A DNA stretch of 64,000 bases from assembly GCA_024103425.1 (NCBI GenBank), contig JAGFIS010000034.1, positions 1 through 64,000 of the forward strand. Reading direction: 5' to 3'. Of the stretch, positions 10,511-28,507 are shown in pieces; position 1 is the first letter of the stretch; the number at the start of each line of letters is the position of its first letter. Source of the stretch: Chitinophagaceae bacterium. Its GTDB lineage: Bacteria > Bacteroidota > Bacteroidia > Chitinophagales > Chitinophagaceae. Both the position numbers and the translations under genes were made by a program. Under the pieces are notes generated by a model. The model worked only from the letters and a program-made list of their open reading frames with translations, had not been told where the DNA came from and did no database searches.

Positions 10511-10581
10511 CAGGTGTTCTTTTGGAACTGAAAGTTAAGAGAAAAATTTTACAACCTGTTGAGAATCATTACAAGAAATCA

Positions 10582-11480
10582 GGCTTTGTGCGCGAGGTTC
10601 TCCTCCTGAGGAGGAGTCAGAGGTGGTGAACTCCATGTTGTTCTCAGGATTAGCTGCGCTGATCCTTTACGCATTGACCTAGCCCAAAACCCTCCACGCC
10701 ACTATCGTGTCGTGTGATCTTTTCATTCCAACTCCTTAGTGAAGCGAGCTTCCCATTAGCGGGCCCTGTGCGCGAAGTTCTCCTCCTGAGGAGGAGTCAG
10801 AGGTGGTGAACTCCATGTTGTGCCCAGGATTAGCTGCGCTGATCCTTTACGCATTGGTCTAGCCCAAAACCCTCCACGCCACTATCGTGTCGTGTGGTCT
10901 TTTCATTCTATCCCCTTTGTGAAGCAAGCTTCCCATTAGCGGGCCCTGGGCGCGAAGTTCTCCTCCTGAGGAGGAGTCAGAGGTGGTGAATTCCATGTTG
11001 TTCTCAGGATTAGCTGTGCTGATCCTTTACGCATTGGCCTTACCCAAAGCCCCTGCACGCCACTATCGTGTCGTGTGGTCTTTTCATTCTAACTCCTTAG
11101 TGAAGCGGGCTTCCCACATTATCAGGCTTTGTGCGCGAAGTTCTCCTCCTGAGGAGGAGTCAGAGGTGGTGAATTCCATGTTGTTCTCAGGATTAGCTGT
11201 GCTGATCCTTTACGCATTGGCCTTACCCAAAGCCCTGCACGCCACTATCGTGTCGTGTGGTCTTTTCATTCCAACTCCTTAGTGAAGCGGGCTTCCCACA
11301 TTATCAGGCTTTGTGCGCGAGGTTCTCCTCCTGAGGAGGAGTCAGAGGTGGTGAATTCCATGTTGTTCTCAGGATTAGCTGTGCTGATCCTTTACGCATT
11401 GGTCTTACCCAAAGCCCTGCACGCCACTATCGTGTCGTGTGATCTTTTCATTCCAACTCCTTAGTGAAGCGAGCTTCCCA
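10582..11480. repeat. five tandem copies of a 180-183 bp repeat
   Basis: The landmark cgcgaggttc/cgcgaagttc recurs at 10591, 10771, 10951, 11134 and 11316, giving periods of 180, 180, 183 and 182. Each unit contains the hairpin ctcctcc-tga-ggaggag, then agtcagaggtggtgaa, ccatgttgt, gctgatcctttacgcattg, cgccactatcgtgtcgtgtg and gtgaagc. Copies 1-3 end in ttagcgggcc and copies 4-5 begin with tatcaggctt, so the array has two subtypes. Short frames of 69-99 codons cross the units but are just the repeat translated (PPEEESEVVNSM...) and carry no gene features. The array ends right beside the proposed left end of the integrated element. Confidence 0.9.
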
Positions 11481-11494
11481 CAGAGTTGAAATGA

Positions 11495-12144: not shown

Positions 12145-12900
12145 ATGGCACAACAAAAAGGCATTATCAAACTGGATGGTACTATTGGGGGTATCACCTT
12201 TTATAAATCTGAAGACGGCTACCTTGCCCGTGAAAAGGGCGGTGTTTCTGCTGAAAGAATTGCCAATGACCCCAACTTTGAACGGACTCGTGAAAACGGT
12301 GCTGAATTCGGACGGGCTGGAAAGGCTGGTAAGATTTTGAGGACTTCTTTAAGAGCGTTACTTCAAAATGCGTCCGACAGCCGAATGGTTAGCCGGTTGA
12401 CGCAACGCATGGTTAAAGTGATTCAGGCTGATGCTACAAATCCTCGTGGACAAAGAAACGTGATTGATGGCGAAGCTGAATTGCTGCAAGGGTTTGAGTT
12501 CAACATTAATGGAAAGCTTGGTACTACTCTTTACGCTCCTTACACTACCAGCATTGACCGTGTAACCGGTGCTTTAGAAGCTGTTATCCCATCTTACGTC
12601 CCTGCAAACATGATTGCCGCTCCAAGTGGTACTACACATTACAAAATCATTTCTTCCGGCGTTGAGATTGATTTTGAAAATGAAACCTTCGTTGCAGACA
12701 GTAACAGTTCTACTATTCTGCCTTGGGATAATGTTGCAAGTACTGCATTAACGCTTACCAACAGCGTTACTCCTGCAAGCACTCACCCACTTTTCCTCGC
12801 ATTAGGAATTGAGTTTTATCAGGAAGTGAATGGTACTATGTACCCTTTGAAAAACGGTGCGTTTAACGCTCTTGCGCTTGTTCTGGTGAATGGTGTGTAG
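12145..12900 (+). CDS. Bacteroidota hypothetical cargo protein
   Basis: Protein of 251 aa starting MAQQKGIIKLDGTIGGITFYK. It resembles a family of Bacteroidota proteins that begin with this sort of KGxIKxxGTxGGxxFYK motif and carry a basic, helix-rich segment (about 45-95: ENGAEFGRAGKAGKILRTSL), then a beta-rich C-terminal half. No signal peptide, membrane segment or catalytic motif is seen. Function is unknown. It has its own terminator at 12929-12956 and no neighbour on the same strand closer than 100 bases, so it is a single-gene unit. It may be a phage- or conjugative-element-derived structural protein, but this is a guess. Confidence 0.75.
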   Translation: MAQQKGIIKLDGTIGGITFYKSEDGYLAREKGGVSAERIANDPNFERTRENGAEFGRAGKAGKILRTSLRALLQNASDSRMVSRLTQRMVKVIQADATNPRGQRNVIDGEAELLQGFEFNINGKLGTTLYAPYTTSIDRVTGALEAVIPSYVPANMIAAPSGTTHYKIISSGVEIDFENETFVADSNSSTILPWDNVASTALTLTNSVTPASTHPLFLALGIEFYQEVNGTMYPLKNGAFNALALVLVNGV

Positions 12901-13239: not shown

Positions 13240-13472
13240 TCAGGAATGCCCTAAAAGGGCAAATCTGAAACAAACCGGAAACCGGAAGGATAGCAATGAG
13301 CGAAAAACCCGGATGAAAGGCTATACACGGAGACGCCAGGACGATAAGTGAAGGCAACCGGGCGGCGACGCAAATGCCTGCTGAAAAACGCCGAAGGAAT
13401 GGAAGAACGGCGAACCGAACAATAAGGCTCAATGGCTGGACGGCAATGGCTGATGATACGAAGCTGCTTTTT
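13240..13472. other. non-coding, hairpin-rich lead-in to structured block
   Basis: No convincing gene. Small hairpins are visible: tgccct-aaa-agggca at about 13247-13261, aggca...tgcct around 13352-13378, and cgccg...cggcg around 13389-13413. The phrase aaaggctatacac occurs at about 13207 (end of the preceding gene) and again at about 13316. The base use is richer in G and C than in the flanking genes. Confidence 0.5.
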
Positions 13473-13651
13473 CATAATAAAAAATTTATGTGCTTTTCAC
13501 ACGAAGGCGGCGCAGTCCAACCAAAAGGAAACGGAATAAATGATGGCTTTGTGCGTTGGCTTTGTGTTTATGCCGTAGTCTTTTGGTTGGCTGCTTTGGG
13601 CATTGTGCGTTAGCCCGCCGAAGTATCTTGCACATAAAATTTTTTATTATG
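13473..13651. repeat. structured element A (long nested inverted repeat)
   Basis: An outer AT-rich stem pairs 13473-13493 (cataataaaaaattt...) with 13630-13651, 21 bp with one bulged base. Inside are a ggcgg/ccgcc stem (13506-13510 with 13615-13619) and a perfect 11-bp stem ccaaccaaaag (13517-13527) with cttttggttgg (13580-13590). The latter continues through an internal loop gaa/agt into acggaataa (13531-13539) paired with ttatgccgt (13568-13576) with one A-G mismatch. The same order of stems and the same loop bases recur in element A' (14216-14439) with paired sequence changes. It may act as RNA or as single-stranded DNA; no known RNA family is recognised. Confidence 0.75.
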
Positions 13652-13741
13652 GTAGCGAAGTAATCAGACAAGCGGGTTTGAGCTGTCCTGATTTTTCATC
13701 CTGTTCATAATTCGTTGCACCTTTTGTAAGTCTGTTGCACC

Positions 13742-14164
13742 CTACCTTCTCAAATGGCGGTAGATGATGGCTCTTTTGAGGTCTGATAACAATGCAGCCT
13801 GGATGAGATATTGCTTTTCTAACTCCTCGTATGACCTTATCTTTTTTAAGTCATCTTCAAAATCGGTTTGCCTTAATCTTAAACGGTCGGCTGATTCAGC
13901 AACCAGCTTTTTAAAATCATTGATGCGAATAAACTCAATGACGGAACCGACAAGGATTTGATGAAATGCTTTAGAAATCCAAAGACCATATAAAAGAGAC
14001 TTGTAAAATTCCTTTTGCTTTTCATCCTGGCATAAAATGGCAAAGCAATTCGGGCTAGGTTTTTCAAGTGGTTTACCACTGTTTAAACCCTTACAGAGTG
14101 CAAAGACGGTAAATGCCGGGTAATGCTTTTTAGAATTGTACTGCTGAACTTTTGGGATAACCAT
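13742..14164 (-). CDS. DUF6943-like hypothetical protein
   Basis: Predicted protein of 140 aa from the ATG at 14162-14164. The frame extends upstream to 14320 but that extra 52-codon stretch translates the A-rich stem of structured element A' and is not protein-like. The core pattern ALCKGLNSGKPLEKPSPNCF, then FYKSLLYGLWISKAFH and LVGSVIEFIRINDF, matches my memory of the Bacteroidota family of unknown function DUF6943. The C-terminal 50 residues are a charged helix. It lies exactly between the two related structured elements A and A', pointing left. Function unknown; often found on mobile elements. Confidence 0.65.
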   Translation of the reverse strand: MVIPKVQQYNSKKHYPAFTVFALCKGLNSGKPLEKPSPNCFAILCQDEKQKEFYKSLLYGLWISKAFHQILVGSVIEFIRINDFKKLVAESADRLRLRQTDFEDDLKKIRSYEELEKQYLIQAALLSDLKRAIIYRHLRR

Positions 14165-14215
14165 GGCTATTATTTTTGCGGTTACTTCCCTATTGCCCTG
14201 AAAAAAAATATTTTT

Positions 14216-14439
14216 CAAAAGAAAAAAGGGAAAAAAAGAAAGCAGTTGAAAAAGGCGGCGTGGCAAAAAAGCCAAAAGGAAACGGAATAAGTGCCGAAGG
14301 CTGGCAAGGCACATAAACAAAGCCGGCGAAGCCGACCTATTGCCTTGCCATTATGCCGTAGTCTTTTGGCTTTTTTTGTGTAGAGCCTTGTGGTAGCCGC
14401 CTACCTTTGCGAACTTTTTTTTCCTTCTTTTTCCTTTTG
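14216..14439. repeat. structured element A' (covarying relative of A)
   Basis: An outer purine-rich arm (14216-14250) faces a pyrimidine-rich arm (14405-14439), followed by a ggcgg/ccgcc stem. Then a perfect 14-bp stem pairs 14265-14278 (aaaaaagccaaaag) with 14363-14376, the gaa/agt internal loop recurs, and acggaataa (14282-14290) pairs with ttatgccgt (14351-14359), all as in element A. The apical part is different: tggcaaggca pairs perfectly with tgccttgcca and encloses a cggc-gaa-gccg hairpin. In the shared stem, A/T, C/G and C/G pairs of A are G/C, A/T and A/T pairs here, so pairing is kept while sequence changed. Confidence 0.78.
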
Positions 14440-14530
14440 TGATAAATAAATGGAACTTCTAACTGAGCACGGCTACTAAGTACCATTGGATTGGTTGTTT
14501 TAATTGTGCGTTGGATTGGGACAAAATGCC
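14440..14530. other. short non-coding spacer
   Basis: Nothing certain is seen. It contains attgtgcgttgg, a phrase that recurs with small changes at about 13550, 13603, 14568 and 14721, apparently a shared part of the structured elements. Confidence 0.4.
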
Positions 14531-14955
14531 GCAGGGCTATAAAAGCATACCTTTTTAATTGTGCGCTGGCTTCCCCGAAGGGGTGCAAATGTGGTGAGCC
14601 GGAAAGCCAGGGCAAATGCTTGGGGCAGAAAGCGGGTGCGGCTTGTGCATGGCGGCATTGGTAAATTTATTACGACCAATGCCGTTGAAGCAGAGGTTAA
14701 GCCGCACCCTGCTTTATGCGTTGTGCGTTGGCTTGCCCTGGCTGACGGAGAAACCACTTTTGCAGTGCGGTGCTGAGGCTGGTGCAAGTAAACGAAGCGG
14801 TAATGAAGTGAAGGATAGTGAAATGAATGCAGCCCCGATAAAAATCGGGATAAACTCCGCTGCATGAATGGAACGCCTGAACGGAATGGTAGCGAAGTGC
14901 TTGCATCCTGCCGGAAGCACATTGCAGTGAAATATCAATGCTTTTATAGCCCTGC
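14531..14955. repeat. structured element B, 425-base nested hairpin
   Basis: A perfect 18-bp outer stem joins 14531-14548 (gcagggctataaaagcat) and 14938-14955. Nested inside are agccagggcaa (14605-14615) with 14733-14743, gggtgcggctt (14634-14644) with 14699-14709, and ggcattggt (14654-14662) with 14675-14683, all perfect. To the right are a cccgat-aaa-atcggg hairpin enclosed by atgcagc/gctgcat, and gtgctt/aagcac (about 14897-14919). Short frames on both strands cross this block, but none has protein-like composition; they are by-products of the paired structure. Confidence 0.75.
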
Positions 14956-15016
14956 ACCGCTGAAATGGGTGGGTGGGTGCGTGGGAAGAAGCGTAGGGAA
15001 AAAATGCGGCTTCTGA

Positions 15017-15068
15017 ACCCCGAAAAATATTAGCTTAGGATTTGTGTGCAGGGATATTTTTTCGGGGT
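15017..15068. repeat. hairpin C
   Basis: Arm accccgaaaaatat (15017-15030) pairs with 15054-15068, which has one extra T. The loop is 23 bases. It lies between structured elements B and D. Confidence 0.65.
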
Positions 15069-15084
15069 GAAGGCTATGCCATTG

Positions 15085-15196
15085 GCTACTTAACATAATG
15101 TGCTTATGTGACAGCCTGTGCGGCTGGATGCTTGCATAAGCGATAGCAAAAGGCTGTGCGAAGCGAACACATAAGACCACATTATGTTTAAGTAGC
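15085..15196. repeat. structured element D, ~26-bp stem
   Basis: Left arm 15085-15110 (gctacttaacataatgtg then cttatgtg) pairs with right arm 15168-15196, interrupted only by one extra base and one three-base bulge. The loop contains cagcc-tgtgc-ggctg, an acagcc/ggctgt alternative pair, and a tgcgaagcg mini-hairpin. Same style as A, A' and B: long AT-rich outer stem, GC-rich small hairpins inside. Confidence 0.72.
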
Positions 15197-15200
15197 TTCC

Positions 15201-15372
15201 GCCGTTTTACATACTGGCATAAGCGAAGTGGTGGTGGTGGTTGGAACGAAGCGTCTATTTGCTGCTATGCAAAGGGTTGGCTTGGCTCTTTGGCTGTGCA
15301 GCGAAGCGAAACAGACAATGTGCCAAGTGGATTGGCTGCATAGCCGCAAATAGTATGACAGTTGTAAACGGC
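15201..15372. repeat. structured element E
   Basis: An outer gccgttttac (15201-15210) pairs with gtaaacggc (15364-15372) with one bulge. Inside, ctatttgctgctatgca (15255-15271) pairs with 15337-15353 with a single mismatch, and cttggc pairs with gccaag (about 15281-15286 and 15322-15327). The loop carries gcgaagc. Confidence 0.68.
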
Positions 15373-15389
15373 GGCAATGGCATAGAAGG

Positions 15390-15423
15390 CAGGCGAAGCG
15401 TTGGGTTTGTGCGATTGCGCCTG
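15390..15423. repeat. hairpin F near operon end
   Basis: Arms caggcg (15390-15395) and cgcctg (15418-15423) enclose a gcgaagcg core. It lies about 30 bases past the stop of the leftward operon, so it could serve as its terminator, but no T-run follows on that strand. Confidence 0.45.
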
Positions 15424-15452
15424 ACTAAAGCCTCATTTTTTGTGGGCGGGTG

Positions 15453-15807: not shown

Positions 15808-16770
15808 TTACCACAAATCATCGTTAATTCCTTGCATCTGGTCTAAAAAGAATTGGTAATCTTCCGGCAAACTATGTCCCTCCGGCATAATTCGCTTATA
15901 ATCAACGGGAATGTTTGTATTAATCCTCATGAAAACAAAGGTTCCATGCCAGAACTCACCTTTATTTACCTGCTTTATTCCTTCCAATAAATGAGAAAAA
16001 TAATGCCCGGAATAGATAAGCATTTCTCCTCCATTTTCCTTTATAAACTCTGATGTGGCGAATAAACCAAAGCCCAATCCTTCTCCATTGGTAACACCCT
16101 TAGCCGTACAAATTTGAACTGCATCCATTTCCTTCAAATGTTTGTACTTAGATTTTTCCGGTGTTGTCAACGCCTTATGAATACCTACTCCGGTGTCGCA
16201 AATAATTAAGCGAATTTCATTTGATTTCGGAAATAATTGAGCACAACACCATCCTTTGCCCTCATAAACATTCGGATAGTCAGAATGGTTAATAACATTG
16301 TCCATAATTTCGTACATACAGTAATCCAGCATTTGTTGTACTTCAATTGCTACTTCTACATTTGCAATTAATACCCTACGAATATTTTCAAAAACATTTT
16401 TGATTGTATCCTTATTGTACGGCGTTATCTCTGTAAACTTTCCTGCACTTGGTCTTCTTTCAAACTTTTCTTCATAATCCAATTCCAAAAGTTTAAAGAA
16501 ATTCACCCGACTGGCATATTGGCTTTTGGCATCTTCATCATCACAATGTACTCCACCCGTTACTGTAATTCCGTCGCTTCTGAGTTTTATCAATGTTGTA
16601 GTAACCAGCATCAATAAATCAGAATACAGCATTTTGTAATAAGTGTTCAGGTAAACTTGAAAATCTACCGTATCACCAACCGTTGCGGTAAATGCAGGAC
16701 TTAAATCAGCTACTAATTGAGGATGAGAAGTATATCGCTTGAAATCTATATTTATGTTGATAATAGCCAT
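15808..16770 (-). CDS. GHKL/HATPase_c ATP-binding protein
   Basis: Predicted 320-aa soluble ATPase or kinase of the GHKL fold. Visible boxes: N box EIMDNVINHS (Glu154, Asn158), G1 box DTGVG (Asp192-Gly196) and G2 box GEGLG (229-233) followed by FGLFATSEF. It lacks a histidine-kinase phospho-acceptor His region, so it looks more like an anti-sigma-type (RsbW/SpoIIAB-like) protein with a ~140-residue N-terminal domain I do not recognise. Its start codon shares one base with the stop of hsdR (TAATG), so the two are translated together. The next gene is STAS-like. The pair inside a type I R-M operon is unusual. Confidence 0.85.
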   Translation of the reverse strand: MAIININIDFKRYTSHPQLVADLSPAFTATVGDTVDFQVYLNTYYKMLYSDLLMLVTTTLIKLRSDGITVTGGVHCDDEDAKSQYASRVNFFKLLELDYEEKFERRPSAGKFTEITPYNKDTIKNVFENIRRVLIANVEVAIEVQQMLDYCMYEIMDNVINHSDYPNVYEGKGWCCAQLFPKSNEIRLIICDTGVGIHKALTTPEKSKYKHLKEMDAVQICTAKGVTNGEGLGFGLFATSEFIKENGGEMLIYSGHYFSHLLEGIKQVNKGEFWHGTFVFMRINTNIPVDYKRIMPEGHSLPEDYQFFLDQMQGINDDLW

Positions 16771-19700
16771 TATTTGATTTCTTCTTTTGCCCAGGTATCT
16801 GCTAACATTTCTGCCTGCTTTAATACAGTCTGTACTGCTTTTTCCTGCTTATCAGGTGGGTAGCCATATTGTCTTAGTATTTTGCGAACGATGACTCGTA
16901 ATTTGGCTCTTACGTTTTCTTTTATTTGCCAGTCAATGGTAGTATTTGCTTTTACCTTATCAACCAATTCTCTTGCAATTTCTCTAAGCTGCTCATCTTC
17001 CATTATTTGCTTAGCCGCATCGTTATCACAGATAGCATCGTAAAAAGCTATTTCGTCTTTTGTAAGGTTTAAAGCAGCTTCTCTCTCATCGGTCTGTCTT
17101 AGGTCTTTTGCCAAACCTATCAGCTCATTCAATATTTCAGCACTGGTCAATAATTGGTTTTGGTACTTTTTAATAGCGTTTTCCAGCATTTCTGAAAACT
17201 TCTTACTCAGTATCAGGTTGTGTGTAGAGCGGCTTTTCAATTCATCGTTCAGCAATTTTTTAAGCAATTCCAAAGCAAGGTTCTTATGTTGCATACCTCT
17301 AACTTCTTGTAAAAACTCATCACTTAAAATGGAAATATCCGGCTTCTTAATTCCGGCAGCATTAAAAATATCTACCACCTCGTTACTAACTATTGCTTTG
17401 TCTACCATTTGGCGAATGGCAGTTTCTATTTCTTCATCCGTTTTTCCGTTTTGGTTTCCGTTGAATTTTGAGAGGCGTGCTTTTACTATCTGAAAGAAAG
17501 CTACCTCTAATGCAATATCAGCAGCTTCTTGTGTGCTTTTACAAAGGGCGAAGGCTTTTGACAATAAACTTACTTCCTTATTAAAACGCTCCTTGCCATT
17601 TTCTACAGAAAGGATATGTTCTTCGGAAGTAAGGATGATAGATAATTTCTCTGCAACAGGTGCTGTGAAGTATGGGGTATAATCATAACCATTCATGATT
17701 TGCCGCACCACTTCCAGCTTTTCCATCATTATGGCAATAGCATCATCTATATCAAAGGTCGGTTTTCCCTTCCCGCCGCTTTCGGTATAAGTTGAAAGTG
17801 CTTTCTTTAAATCCTGTGCTATACCAATATAATCTACTATCAAGCCTCCAGGTTTATCTAAATAAACCCTATTCACCCTTGCAATTGCCTGCATCAGACT
17901 GTGTCCTTTCATGGGTTTATCTACATACAAAGTGTGTAAGGAGGGAGCATCAAAACCTGTAAGCCACATATCCCTTACAAGTACCAGTTTCAATTCATCT
18001 TTAGGTTCTTTCAATCTTTCACCGATGGCTTTATTCCTTTCCTTACTTCTTAGATGAGGTTGAAAAGTAGCGGGGTCGGACGAAGACCCTGTCATAACAA
18101 CTTTAATTGCTCCTTCATTATCATCTTTACTGTGCCAATGCGGTTTTAGTTTAATTATCTCCTCATACAACAAAACACAAATTCTGCGGCTCATACAAAC
18201 TATCATTCCTTTACCTTCAAATACTTCCTGTCTTTCTTCAAAATGATTAACAATATCGGCAGCTACATTTTTTATCCTATTCGCATTTCCTACAATTGCT
18301 TCCAGCCTTGCCCATTTGGCTTTTGCCTTTTGCTTATCAGTTAACTCTTTGTCTTCTGTTATTTCTTCAAACTCTTCATCCAGCAACTCCTTTGCTTCTG
18401 GGTCTATATTCACTTTTGCCAAACGGCTTTCATAGTATATGCGAACCGTTGCTCCATCTTCTACTGCCTGTTGTATATCGTACACATCAATGTAGTCGCC
18501 AAAAACAGTTTTTGTATTTCTATCGGTGAGCTCTACGGGTGTACCGGTAAAACCAATGAAGGTTGCAGCAGGCAAAGCATCCCGCATGTATTTGGCAAAC
18601 CCGTAGGTAGTTCTTGCGCCTATTTCTTTTCCTTCTTCGTCTTTAATAATCCTGTTCTTTGCTTCAAAGCCATACTGTGTGCGGTGCGCCTCATCTGCAA
18701 TCACCACAATGTTTTTACGGTCACTAAGCAATGGGAAAATATCTTGCCCTTCTTCGGGAAAAAATTTCTGAACCGTTGTGAAAACTACACCACCTGCTGC
18801 AACTTGCAGTTTGTCTTTTAGATCATCTCTGTTTTGTGCCTGTGTGGGAGCCTGCCTTAATAATTGCCGACAAGCTGCGAAAGTATCAAACAACTGCTGG
18901 TCAAGGTCGTTCCTGTCTGTAATGACAACGATGGTAGGATTGTTTAGTGCCTGAATGATTTTTCCGGTATAAAAAACCATTGACAATGATTTACCACTTC
19001 CTTGTGTATGCCATACGATACCGCCCTTTTGTGTAGCATCTTTATCACCAAACCCCGTAGCTTGTACGGTGCTATCTACTGCTTTATTTACTGCGTAGTA
19101 TTGGTGATAGGCAGCAATTTTCTTGATGGTTTCGATAGTGATTATTTGCGTTACCGGGTCTTCTTTTTTGTCTTTTTCAAAAACAATAAAATAGCGGAGA
19201 TAATCCAGCAAAGTATTTTTATTGAGCAAGCCTTCTATTAAAACCAACAATTCGCTTTCTAAATGCGAAGCATTTGTTTTACCATCCTTCGTTTTCCATT
19301 TTGAATAGCGGCTAAAAGATGCACTGATACTACCTGCTTTTGCTTCAAAACCATCGCTGGCTACCATAAATGCATTGTAGGGAAATAGAGATGGGACGGC
19401 AGTTTTGTAATTATTGAGTTGGGTATAGGCTTTTTCCACTGTTGCTTTGGCATCGGCTGGGTTTTTTAATTCAATGATGACCAAGGGAATGCCGTTAATG
19501 AATAAAATAATATCGGGGCGTTTGTGCTGTGTGCCTTCTGTAATGGTAAATTGGTTGACGCAGACGTAGTTGTTGTTTTCCGGATTTTGATAATCTATCA
19601 ATAAAACTTTATCACCTCTGGTTTCGCCATTGAGTGTATAGGTTACATCCACACCTTCGGTTAGCATGATGTGAAAATCTTCATTTGCCTGCATCATGTC

Positions 19701-19943
19701 GGGGCTGCCAATACGCAATACTTTATTGATGGCTTCTTCTTGCGCCGATATGGGAATTTGTTCATTGATAACAGCAATATGCTGCCGCAGCCGTTCTTTC
19801 AGTATCACATCATTATAGCTATCTCGTTCCGGGAACTCCCCATCAGATGCCAACATAGGACCGTACATATAATCCCAACCGATAGATTGTAAATGCTCAA
19901 TGGCAAGTTGTTCTATGCTATCTTCAGATATTATTTCGTTCAT
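16770..19943 (-). CDS. hsdR: type I restriction enzyme subunit R
   Basis: Motor and nuclease subunit of a type I restriction-modification enzyme, 1057 aa, usual length. The PD-(D/E)xK nuclease is near the N-terminus (Asp144 in KRPDIILF, Glu158-Leu-Lys160 in IIELK). The helicase motor follows: Walker A GSGKS (315-319), DEAH box (417-420), FTGTP motif, and the motif VI segment [10 protein letters not shown]. The C-terminal third is helical and charged, as expected for contact with the methylase. All key residues are present, so it should be active. It overlaps the DUF262 gene by 4 bases (ATGA) and the GHKL gene by one base. Confidence 0.96.
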
Positions 19944-21718
19944 GTTTTTTGGATTAAATTCTTTTTGATTTTCTCTAAATCAACATCTAAAATTTTCTCT
20001 ACCTGATCACAAAACCACATCCATCGCCCATTCATAGCATCAATATTCCATTCTTTATTGAATTTGTTGCTGTTGTAATCGTTTACAATGTTTTGAGTGA
20101 TTTTAAATGAGCTGATTTTTTTATCGTCGGCATCTTCCAAACCTGTACCATCGTAGGATTGAAGTTTAATATCAAAGGCGTAATTTCTTGCATCCAGGTT
20201 TTTGCTTCCACTAAGCAACGTAAGGTTAGCTCCGGTATTTATCCATTCGTCAAGGTCTTTGATATCGTTGGCAAATTGCCATTCTTCTATTTTATTAAAT
20301 GCCCTTGGAAGGATATGCTCCGTCTGAATATTTCTATCTCCCATTGAGTAATAGGGTGGATTATCCTGCTGTTCATATTCAATCATAAACAGTAGCGGTT
20401 TACACCATGCTTCAAAATAAATGTCTCCATTCAGGTTATTGATGGCTCTTTGTATAACGTCATCATTCAATTGTTTGTTCCATTCATTTTCTATATCCGC
20501 TAATGGTTTGTGGTCTTTTAAATAGCCAATGAGATTAAAAGAAGTTTGTTTGATTTTTGATAATGTATTTCCTGCCAGCCAGTTTAAATAATAATATCTT
20601 CTGAACTTGACTAAAAACTCCTCGAACTGTGGATATTTTACATACAACGCCGTAGTAACTATGGTGCGCCAATACACACTCCATCTTAGATAATACAATG
20701 AATACATTATCGGACTTTCAGAGTTGTAAACGTCTATTTTATAGGTATGCACAAAGTCTTTAAATTCTTTTATTACTTCGTTGGCATATCTTGCATCAAA
20801 AAGATTTCGCAATTCATCGTATAATGAACGTTCAGGGTTTTTTGCCAATAAATAATACTCATACATCACAAATAGATTGTTCATGCTTTCCTCTGTATCC
20901 GTGGCTATGTTTTCACAGCTTTTCCAGTCGTCCATAAACTGGTCTTCGTGTTGCTTTCTTACTTCGGCATCTTCTTCATACTGTTTATGGATTTTACCGA
21001 TTAAAAAGCTTTTGATTAGGTCTGCATTGGAAAGGTCGAGCCCTCTGTCGTTCAATACCTGAAACAGCTTAATGGCAAAACTTACCGATTGGCAATCAAT
21101 GCGGATGATTTTTACACTGTTGAACAGGTAGTTGATAAACTGTCCCGTTTCTTCTTCGCCCAATTCTTCCATTTTTTCCCGAAAGAAGGCGGCGGTATTC
21201 ATAAACTTGAACTTGGGTGCTTGCTCTATGCGTAAGTCTTTTTTGTAGGGTCTTTTATTATCTGTTGCCCTTCCTTCTTTAATAACTAAATTCTGAAAAT
21301 CGCTTTCATGGTTGGAATGTGTTCTGAGCCGTAACCGTTCGAACCTGTCATTTAAACGGATTGAAGATTTTATGGCAGAAACATCAATGGCAAAAGGGTC
21401 TTTCTCTAAAATAGCTGCGTTAATATCCGGGTACATATCCCGGCATACGCAAAGCAGAATTAGAAGTGTAGTTAGTCGTTGCTGCCCATCTACTATGTCC
21501 AGATAATTAGAGGCTTCCTCCGGCTTGGCAGTAATAATAGAACCTAAAAAATAATTGGGCTCGTATTGCTGAGCTTCCCGCAAATCGTCCCAGAGTTTGC
21601 TCAACTGGTCTTCGCCCCAGGAGTAAGGACGCTGGTAACGGGGTATTTGATACAGGGCATCTTTATTACCAAACAGTTCGCCAATGGTTAGGCTTTGTGG
21701 TTTAAATATATCTTCCAT
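19940..21718 (-). CDS. DUF262/DUF1524 GmrSD-like nuclease
   Basis: 592-aa fusion with an N-terminal DUF262 domain (YQRPYSW at 28-34 and DGQQR at 77-81, the ParB-like nucleotide-binding signature) and a C-terminal DUF1524 His-Asn-type nuclease domain (His468 in TEHILPR, Asn498 in GANLTLL, Asn512). This is the architecture of GmrS-GmrD, SspE and BrxU, which cut modified or foreign DNA using NTP. The motifs appear complete. It lies inside the type I operon, 11 bases after the GIY-YIG gene and overlapping hsdR by 4 bases, so it must be co-expressed with the R-M enzyme. Whether it restricts modified phage DNA here is inferred from the family. Confidence 0.88.
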
Positions 21719-21729
21719 TTAGTTTTTCT

Positions 21730-22152
21730 TTAAAAATCAGTATTCCATCGTGGCAGTCCTTTATGCTGCCTAAAATAGTCTTGAAGACAGTAAGCCTCGG
21801 CATAAGCCGGTATATCTTCCACTTCTCCTGCCTCAAAGGTTACATACCACTTCACTATTATTTCTTTAATACCCTCTACCATCATTTTAGAAGCCCATGC
21901 CTTTTTTCTTGGCGCATCAAACTGCTTTCCGTTTACTATCCTGTCGCACATGCCACCTTTTCTTAACTGAAAGCTACCATCCTGGCATACCCAACCGGAA
22001 CTTCCGATATAGATTATTTCATGCGTAGCTGCGTTATAAACAATATAAATCCCTCCTTTGTCCGTAGGCGCATTACATTTTTTTGAAAGCACCTCTTCAG
22101 TTTTAAAAACAAACTCGCCCCTTGTTTTGTATTTATTTGTCAGTGCTTCCAT
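21730..22152 (-). CDS. GIY-YIG domain protein
   Basis: 140-aa protein with a GIY-YIG nuclease fold: GGIYIVYN, then YIGSSG, an Arg in LRKGGMCDR, and a late Glu in the helix YAEAYCLQDYF. It is little more than the domain plus short extensions, with no DNA-binding module visible. It is placed between hsdS (8 bases) and the DUF262 gene (11 bases) in the same operon. GIY-YIG proteins cut or nick DNA; many small ones next to restriction genes have unproven roles. It could be a nuclease subunit or a structural partner of the DUF262 protein. Confidence 0.78.
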   Translation of the reverse strand: MEALTNKYKTRGEFVFKTEEVLSKKCNAPTDKGGIYIVYNAATHEIIYIGSSGWVCQDGSFQLRKGGMCDRIVNGKQFDAPRKKAWASKMMVEGIKEIIVKWYVTFEAGEVEDIPAYAEAYCLQDYFRQHKGLPRWNTDF

Positions 22153-22160
22153 TATCTACT

Positions 22161-23393
22161 TCATTTTACCCTCACCGTTCCGCTCATCAACTGTGGCAAT
22201 AAACTATCCCGCAATTGGGTAAGGGTTTTTATTTGCTTTTTATTTTGATTTTGCTTTTTAAATAATGGCTTTATTTTTTTATTGAAACTTATTACTTCGT
22301 TTTCATTAGGCATTTTAAATTCCATTTGGTTCAGTAGTGCTTTGTAATCCAAATTTTTTATTCCTGAACTACCATTTTCTAAATTGAAAAATTCTCCTTG
22401 ATTGTATAAAAATTGCAAATAGCAATAAAGAAAAAATGAATAATCTTTCCTTTTTATTCTAATCATTCTACAGAAATTAGAAAAGACTATTGGATAATCA
22501 AATAGGTCTTGAACATCGTCGTTTATATAGCATACTCTTCCTGTAGATTGGTTGTCTGTTCCTCCTGATATTTCAATAATTAAATCACCTTCTTTTGGTT
22601 GTATATTTTCAAACTTTTTTTCCTTTACAAAACGAATAGGCGTTTTTAATGGTAATCCGGTAATCAAGTCTGCAATATCAGTTCCTCTAATACAGTTAAC
22701 TGCTTTATTAAAATCGTTTTCTAAATTTTCTTTACCCCATTCCCCTCCTACAGTTTCTAAAATCCATTTACTAAAGCTTCCCATTTCCCAATCCTCCTTT
22801 GCATCTTCTACAAACCATTTTCTAAACAACGTTTCAGCCAATTGTTCTAAAGTTTGGTTTTGGTGGTGCAGCAGGTCTATTTTGGCATCTAAGCGGCTGA
22901 GTATGGTGGCTATGGCTTTTTGGGTGGGGAGTGGGGGGAGAGTGATGTCAACTTCACTCAATAAAGATGTATTAATAGATGGCATTGTTGCTCCAACCGC
23001 AATCATCCTTATCGTTTCTTTAAAACTGAATTGACTAAAGTAGTAAGACAAATATCTGGAATAAATAATACCCTCATTAACTCTTACTCTTAACAACCTG
23101 CCCGAAAACATCCATCCATCTTCCTGTTCAGAAATGTATGCACATCTGTCAACTGAACCAACTCTACTAAATACGATGTCCCCTTTTTTAAGAGTGTATT
23201 TTTTTAATCTGTTTTTATCTTCATCTCCAACTAACGGTAAGTTTTTATGCAGAACTTTATTATCTCCTAAATGTTCTACAGTTATAATTGGCGTGCCTGT
23301 TGGCTTGTAATCACTCATATGTAACTGACTACCGAATGGACCTGTTTGTACGTTCGCCACATCTCCTAACTTATATTCTTTCCAATCGTTCAT
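22161..23393 (-). CDS. hsdS: type I restriction enzyme specificity subunit S
   Basis: DNA-recognition subunit, 410 aa, usual length. Two target recognition domains are seen (about 1-150 and 210-365), each followed by a helical conserved region (about 160-195 with HHQNQTLEQLAETLFRKWF, and about 375-405 with KKQIKTLTQLRDSLLPQLMSG). The first domain begins with the usual WKEYKLGDVANVQTGPFGS pattern. Start codon shares one base with the stop of hsdM (TAATG). The recognised DNA site cannot be told from sequence. Confidence 0.95.
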   Translation of the reverse strand: MNDWKEYKLGDVANVQTGPFGSQLHMSDYKPTGTPIITVEHLGDNKVLHKNLPLVGDEDKNRLKKYTLKKGDIVFSRVGSVDRCAYISEQEDGWMFSGRLLRVRVNEGIIYSRYLSYYFSQFSFKETIRMIAVGATMPSINTSLLSEVDITLPPLPTQKAIATILSRLDAKIDLLHHQNQTLEQLAETLFRKWFVEDAKEDWEMGSFSKWILETVGGEWGKENLENDFNKAVNCIRGTDIADLITGLPLKTPIRFVKEKKFENIQPKEGDLIIEISGGTDNQSTGRVCYINDDVQDLFDYPIVFSNFCRMIRIKRKDYSFFLYCYLQFLYNQGEFFNLENGSSGIKNLDYKALLNQMEFKMPNENEVISFNKKIKPLFKKQNQNKKQIKTLTQLRDSLLPQLMSGTVRVK

Positions 23394-24937
23394 TATGTTA
23401 TTATTATTTGCTCTAAGCTTTGGTCAATTAATTTATTCAATTTTGCTTCCTCTTTCATTTGTTCTTTTAATGTGGCTTTGAGTGTGGTAAAGCGTTCTTT
23501 AAAATCAAAATCTTCCTCATCGTCGGGCAAGCCTATGTACCTGCCGGGTGTAAGCACATAATCCAATGCTTCTATCTCTGCAAGGGTGGCAGTTTTGCAA
23601 AAGCCGGGTATGTCTTTATATGCTTTTTTACTTGTTCGCCAATTGTGGAAAGTGTCTGCCAATAATTGTATATCGTCATTGCTAAGCTCCCGGTTTCGGC
23701 GGTTAATGAGGTGCCCCATATTGCGGGCATCTATAAACAACACTTCGCCGTTGCGTTCTTTTTTGCCACGGCTAAAAAACCAAAGGCAGGCGGGTATTTG
23801 TGTGTTTAAAAACAATTTGGTGGGCAGGTTTACAATGCAGTCTATACGCCCGTCTTTCACCAGTGCTTTGCGTATCTCGCCCTCATTGCTGCTTTTGGTG
23901 CTGAGGCTGCCTTTTGCCAGTACAATGCCGCCTTTACCGTTGGGCGCAAGGTGGTAAATGAAATGTTGCAGCCAGGCAAAGTTGGCATTGCCTGCGGGCG
24001 GTATGCCGTACTTCCATCTGCCATCTTTGGTAAGCAGGTCGCCGCTCCAGTCGCTGTCGTTAAACGGTGGGTTGGCAATAATGTAATCCGCTTTTAGGTC
24101 GGGATGGGCATCTTTTAAAAAACTGCCTTCGGTATTCCATTTTATGTGTTCGCTGTTAATGCCTCTAATGGCAAGGTTCATCTTAGCCAGCCGCCAGGTA
24201 GTTTGGTTGCTTTCCTGCCCGTAAATATTTATGTCGTCTATCTTTCCCTGATGGCTGAGAATAAATTCTTCGCTTTGTACAAACATGCCGCCGCTGCCGC
24301 AGCAGGGGTCGTACACACGCCCTTTGTAGGGTTCCAGCATTTGCACCAATAGCTGCACCACGCCTTTTGGGGTGTAGAACTGTCCGCCTTTTCTGCCTTC
24401 GGCAAGGGCAAACTGCCCGAGAAAATATTCGTACACTTTACCCAGCACATCCTTTGCCCGGCTCGCTTTATCGCCAATGGTAATGTTGCTGAACTGGTCT
24501 ATCAATCCACCCAGAGATGTTTTATCCAAATTTTCCCTTGCATATTGCTTGGGCAATACATTTTTAAGCGATTTGTTTTCCTTTTCTATGGCATCCATTG
24601 CATCATCAACCGTTTTGCCAATAGTGGGCTTTTTTGCTTCTGCCATTAAGTGTGTCCACCGGGCGGTTGGTGGTACGTAAAACACATTTTCAGCAAGGCA
24701 TTCGTCTTTGAACTCTGCCAAAAGGGTTTCGTCATTCTCAAAATCTGCACCATTGTATTGGATGAAGTTATTGTATAACTCTTCAAACGCATCGCTGATG
24801 TATTTCAAGAAAATCAAGCCCAAGACAATGTGCTTGTATTCGGCAGCATCTATGTTTTTGCGTAGCTTATCGGCAGCCAGCCAAAGTGTTTTTTCTAAAG
24901 GCAGTTCCTGTTCTTTTGTTTTTCTTGCTTTTGCCAA
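23393..24937 (-). CDS. hsdM: type I restriction enzyme methylase subunit M
   Basis: N6-adenine methyltransferase subunit, 514 aa, usual length. It has the helical N-terminal domain (HsdM_N-like, about 12-150), then the SAM-binding motif DPCCGSGG (210-217) and the catalytic NPPF (289-292), which marks adenine-N6 methylation. With HsdS it modifies host DNA and with HsdR it restricts unmodified DNA. It starts 10 bases after the unknown protein gene at 24948, so that gene belongs to the same operon. Confidence 0.96.
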
Positions 24938-26822: not shown

Positions 26823-26993
26823 ATGCTCAACTTAGAGAAGTGTAAAAAAATTTTAGAAAAAAATGGGAAAAAGGTCACTGATGAGGAAGTAAAAAAAATC
26901 AGAGAACTGATGTACAAAATCGGCAATCTGGACTATTTATTAACTACTGAAAGAAAGAAGGGATGCAAACAGTTGTCATCTACACCCGTGTAA
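26823..26993 (+). CDS. small protein preceding the recombinase
   Basis: 56-aa protein from the ATG at 26823 (MLNLEKCKKIL); a longer frame starts at 26805. It is Lys-rich and helical, with the pattern NGKKVTDEEVKKIRELMYKIGNLDY. I have seen such short proteins before recombinase genes in Bacteroidota, but have no family name or function for it. Its 3' end overlaps the recombinase start by 31 bases, so the pair is translated from one transcript. It could be a directionality or accessory factor. Confidence 0.55.
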   Translation: MLNLEKCKKILEKNGKKVTDEEVKKIRELMYKIGNLDYLLTTERKKGCKQLSSTPV

Positions 26994-28507
26994 GTACGGA
27001 CGAACAGGCTGAAAAGGGCTATAGCCTGGCAGACCAGGAAAACCGTCTTCGCAAATATTGTGAAGCAAAGAATTATGAAATAGCGCAGCACTTTCAGGAC
27101 GACCATTCTGCAAAAACCTTTAATCGTCCTGAATTTCAAAAATTCCTTGAGTATGTCAAGAAGCACAAGGGGTTGGTGAAGAAGTTGCTGATTGTGAAAT
27201 GGGACAGGTTCAGCCGAAACATGGAGTTGTCAATGAACATGATTTCTACGCTGATGCGATTAGGCGTTTCAGTAGAAGCGATTGAACAACCATTGGATGA
27301 AAGCATACCAGAAAATCTTTTGATGAAAGCCTTTTATCTGGCAGCGCCTCAGGTGGAAAATGCAAGGCGGTCCCTAAATACTTTTAATGGTATGCGGCGG
27401 GCAATGAAAGAAGGAAGATATGTGAGCACAGCACCATACGGCTTTAAAAATAGCCGGGATAATTTCAACAAGCCCATCATCGTTCATTCAGAAATGGCAG
27501 CGCCCATAAGAAAGGCGTTTGAATTGATGGCTACAGGAATGTATCCAATTGAGGTTTTGAGAAAGAAACTGTGGAAGGAAGGATTGAAAATCAGCCGGAG
27601 CAATTTTTATACAGTGCTTACCAATCCAATTTACTGTGGCAAAATAAGAATTAAGGCGTTTCAGGATGAACCGGAAGAAGTGGTAAAAGGCATACATGAA
27701 CCGATTATTAGCGAAGAACTATTTTATGATGTTCAAGATGTGCTGGCTGGAAGAAAAAAAGCAAAGATTAAGTATGCGAAGGTTAATGAAACTTATCCGC
27801 TCAGAGGGCACTTAATTTGTCCGCGATGCGGCAAAGTCCTTACAGGTAGTTCCGCTCAAGGCAATGGCGGGAAGTATTATTACTATCACTGCACACAGGG
27901 TTGTAAGGAGAGGCACAAAAGCGATTATGTACACTCTCAGTTTGAAAAATGGCTTTCATCAATAAAAATGGAGGACAGTTTTGCTGAACTGTATCTGGCT
28001 GTAATGGAGGACATTTTTAAGCTGAATGAGGGAGACAGAGAAAAGGAAATAAAGAAACTGGAAGCTAAGAAAGCTGAAAATGCAAGTCTGCTAAAGAGGT
28101 CTGCTCTAAAGTTGGCAAATGATGAGATTGATAAATTTGTGTACCATACGGTTAGGGAGAAAGTAAACGAGGAAAACAGAAAGTATGATATGCAAATTTC
28201 TGATTACAAAAAACTGGAAAGCGGGTTTAGCGACTACGTAAAATACGGGATTTCGCTACTGACCAACCTGGACACCTATTATTCAGCAAGTTCGTTGGAA
28301 GGAAAACAAAAAATGGTTGGTTTGATATTCCCTGAAAAATTGCGGTTTAGCAATAGCACTTTTCAAACCACAAATCCGAATGAAGTATTAACGCTGCTTT
28401 GCAGTACAGGCAAGGGTTTTAGCAAAAAAGAAACAGGACTTTCCAGAAGAAAATCTGAAAAGTCCTGTTTGGTGACCCCGTCAGGATTCAAACCTGAAAC
28501 CTTTTGA
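26963..28507 (+). CDS. large serine recombinase (integrase)
   Basis: 514-aa site-specific recombinase of the large serine type. The N-terminal resolvase domain starts VVIYTRVSTDEQAEKGYSL with catalytic Ser11 and the Arg cluster (DRFSR at about 81-85). It is followed by the recombinase domain (about 155-265), a zinc ribbon (Cys286, Cys289, Cys310, Cys314) and a C-terminal coiled-coil region rich in Lys/Glu (about 350-420). Its last codons (ending TPSGFKPETF) are translated from the tRNA-Arg sequence, so the gene end was formed by the insertion site. It would integrate and excise the element spanning 11528-28479. Confidence 0.93.
   Translation: MQTVVIYTRVSTDEQAEKGYSLADQENRLRKYCEAKNYEIAQHFQDDHSAKTFNRPEFQKFLEYVKKHKGLVKKLLIVKWDRFSRNMELSMNMISTLMRLGVSVEAIEQPLDESIPENLLMKAFYLAAPQVENARRSLNTFNGMRRAMKEGRYVSTAPYGFKNSRDNFNKPIIVHSEMAAPIRKAFELMATGMYPIEVLRKKLWKEGLKISRSNFYTVLTNPIYCGKIRIKAFQDEPEEVVKGIHEPIISEELFYDVQDVLAGRKKAKIKYAKVNETYPLRGHLICPRCGKVLTGSSAQGNGGKYYYYHCTQGCKERHKSDYVHSQFEKWLSSIKMEDSFAELYLAVMEDIFKLNEGDREKEIKKLEAKKAENASLLKRSALKLANDEIDKFVYHTVREKVNEENRKYDMQISDYKKLESGFSDYVKYGISLLTNLDTYYSASSLEGKQKMVGLIFPEKLRFSNSTFQTTNPNEVLTLLCSTGKGFSKKETGLSRRKSEKSCLVTPSGFKPETF
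28424..28470 (-). terminator. element-supplied terminator for tRNA-Arg
   Basis: A perfect 12-bp inverted repeat, aaacaggacttt (28431-28442) with aaagtcctgttt (28459-28470), plus an inner caga/tctg pair, lies just after the tRNA 3' end in its direction of transcription and is followed by CTTTTTT on that strand (28424-28430). It lies inside the recombinase coding region. It is unrelated in sequence to the hairpin at 11495-11527, which I take as the original terminator. Confidence 0.75.

Follow-up and report, generated by a model that had tools for sequence, protein, structure and literature searches.

The locus studied here raises the question of what a dense chain of long hairpins is doing at one end of a bacterial genomic island, and whether these hairpins work as RNA or as DNA. 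They lie in the window, that is, the whole stretch of 64,000 nucleotides of a Chitinophagaceae bacterium that was analyzed, in which an original prediction described five successive hairpins, named B to F. The reading favored here, with a probability of roughly 60%, is that the hairpin zone is built to fold when its plus strand is single-stranded, that two further hairpins to the left of B, S1 and S2, are single-strand promoters, and that B–E form a companion structure.

The hairpin zone (13454-15425) is part of one end of a mobile genomic island. The conserved unit of this end runs from a small HTH-like ORF and the MAQQKG gene through S1, another small ORF and S2 with the DUF6943 gene to B–F. 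The B–F block is present in one copy in its own genome and had matches in 27 of 394 genomes from its own family, Chitinophagaceae, B–F being kept in related islands, and no copies were detected by blastn in plasmid and phage collections. The MAQQKG gene (12145..12900, plus strand, 251 aa) adjoins nearly all of the island copies; its product had no family match in Pfam, PHROGs or NCBIfam, and its AlphaFold model was poor (pLDDT 60). Twenty members of this family were aligned. A 180-bp unit repeated five times in tandem (10578-11482) lies directly to the left of the conserved island end.

The block had been thought to lie between two operons of the element. This did not hold, since the DNA to the right of B–F is variable cargo rather than a fixed operon, mostly encoded on the minus strand, with restriction-modification (R-M) genes in the window and metal efflux or other defence-like genes elsewhere. 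The cargo of the window includes a Type I R-M operon (HsdR, HsdS, and HsdM; 16770-24937, minus strand) in which an inserted GmrSD-type gene separates HsdR from HsdS, and a protein of about 690 aa starting with motifs like LNIIPF is cargo of at least seven islands. A large serine recombinase gene (26963..28507, plus strand), which overlaps the 3′ end of a tRNA-Arg gene, likely encodes the integrase of the window's own island. It was rejected as an integrase common to the island family, because the far island end of several relatives holds a tyrosine integrase gene adjacent to mnmE. In the search for an att repeat of the tRNA-Arg, no exact 12-nt repeat was found at the left side. No relaxase was present among the Pfam matches of the ORFs from 12 to 28.5 kb of the window, and the transfer of this island would therefore need a helper.

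The folding of the B–F block was analyzed on the plus strand. Eighteen uninterrupted base pairs (14531-14548 with 14938-14955) form the outer stem of domain B (14531..14955) and enclose 425 nt. In the relatives examined this stem is kept by compensation, other bases having taken over the pairing; the interior varies in length and content and holds a long C-poor unpaired stretch. In domain C (15018..15067; stem 15018-15030/15054-15067) the stem sequence is replaced in relatives and a stem is still present. D and E, which had been listed as separate hairpins, proved to be two arms of a single domain (15075..15384) with 84 consensus pairs, closed by a helix between 15075-15084 and 15375-15384. 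Arm D (15084-15196) pairs 15084-15102 with 15178-15196, and an inner helix continues the stem; arm E (15199-15374) pairs 15199-15216 with 15354-15374. Hairpin F (15390..15425; 15390-15395/15418-15423) is short and the weakest of the set. The 941-nt block folded with −219 kcal/mol under DNA parameters (z −15.3) and −398 kcal/mol under RNA parameters (z −11.9), values matched by none of 20 shuffles in either case. The stems of the predicted chain are thus real, and the series extends further to the left, to S1 and S2.

The abundance of GCGAAGC mini-hairpins in this zone was also confirmed, with four copies in 13240-15450 vs. 0.18 expected from the rest of the window; d(GCGAAGC) forms very stable DNA mini-hairpins. 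In the hairpin region of the window the pentamer CGAAG occurs 15 times on the plus strand and its complement CTTCG not once, a bias that fits the plus strand as the folded one. As a general strand marker this bias was discarded, because it is absent around S motifs in general, outside the islands. Two G-rich runs were also noted on the plus strand. For GGGTGGGTGGGTGCGTGGG (14967-14985) the relatives keep only a G-rich stretch, and a G-quadruplex was dismissed as a conserved feature, this run not being a strict G4 in most of them; GGTGGTGGTGGTTGG (15230-15244) is well conserved in most islands.

S1 and S2, which were absent from the original list, flank the DUF6943 gene just to the left of B and have an internal-loop motif in common, made up of AAAAGGAAACGGAATAA on the 5′ arm and TTATGCCGTAGTCTTTT on the 3′ arm. 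The hairpins themselves span about 13473-13651 (S1) and 14222-14431 (S2). In S1 (about 13454..13660, plus strand) the motif appears as GGAAACGGAATAA at 13527-13539 and TTATGCCGTAGTC at 13568-13580, followed by a −7-like element, TATCTTGC (13624-13631), that is off the consensus; most relatives have TAnnTTTG. In S2 (about 14200..14440, plus strand) it occupies 14278-14290 and 14351-14363, and TACCTTTG (14402-14409) lies within an internal loop of the 3′ arm. On the minus strand, a 74-aa ORF (MKKQLRIISHCRPAIEPYC...DLPF; 13251..13475) has its start codon 52 nt to the left of the S1 motif, and relatives have a comparable ORF in this position; the DUF6943 gene (13742..14164) has its start codon 114 nt to the left of the S2 motif. 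S1 and S2 are proposed as candidate ssDNA promoters for the 74-aa ORF and for DUF6943, respectively. A conserved non-coding RNA to the left of S1 was also considered and rejected, as the region contains a small ORF but gave no consensus fold.

A pattern search with the S motif retrieved at least 120 stretches in genome contigs, nearly all of Bacteroidota by record title, and six in viral contigs, and 133 distinct sites were present in the contigs examined. The motif was also seen in two contigs labelled Pelotomaculum and Parvularcula, which are probably misbinned Bacteroidota sequence. After clustering of the neighbouring ORFs, the nearest conserved gene to the left of the motif proved to be a minus-strand gene in 113 of 125 cases, its start lying at a median distance of 127 nt. 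Those genes typically encode SSB (PF00436), RadC (PF04002), ParB (PF02195), DUF6943 or proteins that we take to be DUF932-like, whose fragments gave no Pfam match among those searched; PRTRC, TraN, and relaxase genes are found farther from the motif. The left-hand neighbours are genes typical of conjugation leading regions, and elements with two such transcription units carry two hairpins. In five flavobacterial elements, two S hairpins are separated by almost exactly 2.05 kb with a ParB-like gene between them, and in several of these a DUF932-like gene lies to the left of the first hairpin.

The 3′ arm of the S hairpins often contains a sequence of the Bacteroidota promoter form, TTG-N18-21-TAnnTTTG. 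TAnnTTTG was found within 90 nt to the right of the motif on the plus strand at 46 of 132 sites, with counts of 3, 1, and 1 for the other choices of side and strand and a background of about 5%; the exact element is thus present at only about a third of the sites. Among the 69 hairpins tested, TTG was located 18–21 nt upstream of TAnnTTTG in about half, and the −7 core was unpaired in about 74% of the ssDNA folds, lying in a bubble with paired DNA on both sides; for most stretches nearby the share was 17–33%. Read as duplex DNA, this promoter would point to the right, away from the leading genes, and no gene is consistently placed on that side; read in the hairpin, it would point into them. 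The comparison between sites shows conservation, compensation restricted to Watson-Crick pairs, putative promoter elements that keep to one side, one strand and a bubble, and a placement before leading-region genes.

The S hairpins are best read, from this analysis, as Frpo-like single-strand promoters with Bacteroidota sigma elements. In the F plasmid, Frpo is ssDNA whose folding restores the −35 and −10 boxes ahead of ssb and further leading genes; Frpo/ssi sequences exist in dispersed copies, and the leading-region genes downstream of them use the transferred strand as template (PMC9849209, PMC11541004). As in Frpo, the S hairpins combine putative promoter elements, including a mispaired −7, with a site immediately upstream of leading-region genes that the folded strand would template. 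On this model, the plus strand would fold when single-stranded, as in conjugative entry, and the two arms of S would form a duplex in which the 3′ arm supplies the −33 and −7 elements of a Bacteroidota housekeeping promoter, the −7 being held open by the internal loop. Since the 3′ arm would then act as non-template and the 5′ arm as template, transcription would proceed to the left, and the RNA polymerase initiating at S would run along the still single-stranded plus strand into the minus-strand genes. The mRNA for the small ORF (S1) and for DUF6943 (S2) could in this way be made before second-strand synthesis. B–E would accompany S1 and S2 on this strand as a further ssDNA structure, most likely serving transfer or the start of complementary-strand synthesis.

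The polarity of transfer is the weakest computationally testable link of this promoter model. At eight loci, relaxase or coupling genes were located farther to the left on the minus strand, which would place the nick to the left of the leading genes, and from this we infer that the plus strand is the transferred one. By contrast, MobA/MobB genes are found on the plus strand to the right of the motif at four loci, the opposite polarity, which argues against the model.

The product expected from S2 was analyzed by structure prediction. The DUF6943 model (pLDDT 92) consists of a small recognition-like domain and one 59-residue helix, an arrangement resembling that of HsdS, the specificity subunit of Type I R-M systems. 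The best Foldseek match was an R-M specificity chain (E 3.5e-4), and the best ten rows of VIA-align (Z 5.9–7.6) were without exception R-M S-subunits, recognition chains or the S-subunit-like Esub1. The superposition on the HsdS-type fold reached Z 7.6 with an rmsd of 4.1 over 137 residues; a Z below 8 may mean only a common arrangement, and the likeness is therefore taken as a lead. Moreover, DUF6943 differs from HsdS in being half its size and in a sequence identity of 7–14%. Judging from the predicted model, DUF6943, as an HsdS-like protein of half the usual size, might hamper the Type I restriction of a recipient cell and is a candidate anti-restriction protein of the leading region.

The companion structure B–E has no TAnnTTTG on either strand and is not directly before a gene start, and domain D recurs in several unrelated mobile elements. 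B–E would probably act as an origin of transfer, a primer site or a recombination site. The first possibility, that B–E and above all D+E contain the origin of transfer of the island, with a relaxase supplied in trans by another element, is tentative. It is consistent with the lack of a relaxase in the window island and with the position of D about 400–600 nt upstream of MobA/MobB in element L199 and of a Mob_Pre relaxase gene in elements L200 and L201. However, the same D stands beside two unrelated relaxase families and also in elements that have no relaxase nearby, B–E yielded no nick sequence, and a nick there with the plus strand transferred would make S1 and S2 late rather than early.

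About the same rating, and thus a similarly doubtful standing, is given to the possibility that B–E are a single-strand initiation site at which a primase or polymerase would prime the complementary strand. The size and structure of this ssDNA, with its long C-poor unpaired run inside B, would suit this role, as would the presence of D in several unrelated mobile elements, and Frpo itself is reported, in work by Masai and Arai, to prime DNA synthesis as well. By contrast, D is conserved far more strongly than a simple hairpin requires.

It is unlikely that D serves XerCD-type recombinases as a folded recombination site, in the manner of integron attC or CTX attP. D does lie about 300–1600 nt from paired tyrosine recombinase genes in nine elements (L200–L203, L205, L206, L246, L251, and L253), but the islands carry other integrases, serine in the window and a different tyrosine integrase beside mnmE in relatives, and D sits inside a conserved module with no sign of crossover there. 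In seven elements (L200–L203, L246, L251, and L253), two consecutive XerCD-like recombinase genes and a third gene were observed with hairpin D at their 3′ side, and elements of this kind are present as two near-identical copies in one genome.

The proposal that the block is a large multi-domain RNA was evaluated from the pair statistics. In 20 homologues of D/E, 94.5% of the cells pair, and 40 of the 84 pairs have changed on both sides, a figure approached by none of 500 shuffles and by none of six slid versions. The stems are thus preserved by compensation between the copies compared, uncompensated free change was not seen, and the selected multi-domain fold stands as predicted. Its assignment to RNA does not. 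RNA is expected to favour G-U over A-C on its own strand, and 34 tRNAs processed in the same pipeline showed this preference (G-T 40 vs. A-C 4 of 578 cells), whereas the 1659 pair cells of D/E contained 17 G-T and 18 A-C, so that compensation is almost purely Watson-Crick and strand-symmetric. Likewise, 3391 of the 3547 cells of the S stems were Watson-Crick, with 40 G-T and 20 A-C. Compensation through Watson-Crick pairs with so few intermediates argues for folded DNA and not RNA, and what selection maintains is most likely a self-folded DNA strand. Counting G-T against A-C pairs in this way offers a test of whether a conserved fold is one of DNA or of RNA.

That B–E are transcribed from the plus strand as a large structured non-coding RNA is accordingly quite improbable. 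The RNA fold energy is strong, and the plus strand folds better than the minus strand in all 20 homologues; however, the pair statistics contradict this reading, the G+T-rich composition of the strand can account for the energy difference, which was for this reason set aside as proof of strand, and Rfam gave no match, only two tRNAs in the window reaching its thresholds. Still less credible is a functionless fold whose arms are matched by palindrome-correcting replication through template switching, an established mechanism that would leave purely Watson-Crick coordinated changes, since such correction would remove mismatches; instead, particular internal loops with their mismatches persist, the same motif recurring at 133 sites, and many loop positions are invariant. 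A selected DNA fold is therefore most likely.

Extended beyond the window, the single-strand promoter reading would describe a phylum-wide Bacteroidota family with its own sigma elements and a conserved internal-loop motif, which would switch on establishment genes in the recipient before the entering DNA becomes double-stranded, some islands adding a folded ssDNA of 900 nt and several domains (B–E) with a further role in transfer; we consider this extension slightly more probable than its contrary. Early expression from the incoming ssDNA lets elements beat restriction and other defences, and to our knowledge it has been documented mainly in enterobacterial plasmids. Bacteroidota rank among the principal bacterial phyla of the gut and the environment, and a motif marking such promoters across them would locate leading regions together with establishment and anti-defence genes, DUF6943 being the first candidate. 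In the literature searched, which lay mostly outside subscription journals and was judged by title and abstract, no paper describing Frpo or ssDNA promoters of Bacteroidota was found. The principle is known from Frpo; the S family of Bacteroidota, candidate single-strand promoters with a large ssDNA fold attached, is not described in that literature.

Compared with known systems, the window island shares with integrative and mobilizable elements and oriT-only islands a likely integrase at one end, a variable cargo (R-M, metal efflux) and transfer-related DNA features. It differs from integrative and mobilizable elements in that no relaxase was found and in that putative ssDNA promoters and large DNA folds dominate its conserved end. 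Like the Frpo/ssi sequences of F and ColIb-P9, the S hairpins are ssDNA stem-loops in dispersed copies, with putative promoter elements in their arms, upstream of ssb and other leading-region genes, a likeness of layout. Unlike Frpo, these promoters, which are candidates by sequence, have the −33 and −7 elements of Bacteroidota (TTG and TAnnTTTG) instead of −35 and −10 boxes, a conserved internal-loop motif (GGAAACGGAATAA/TTATGCCGTAGTC), and a gene set of RadC, DUF932, ParB, and DUF6943.
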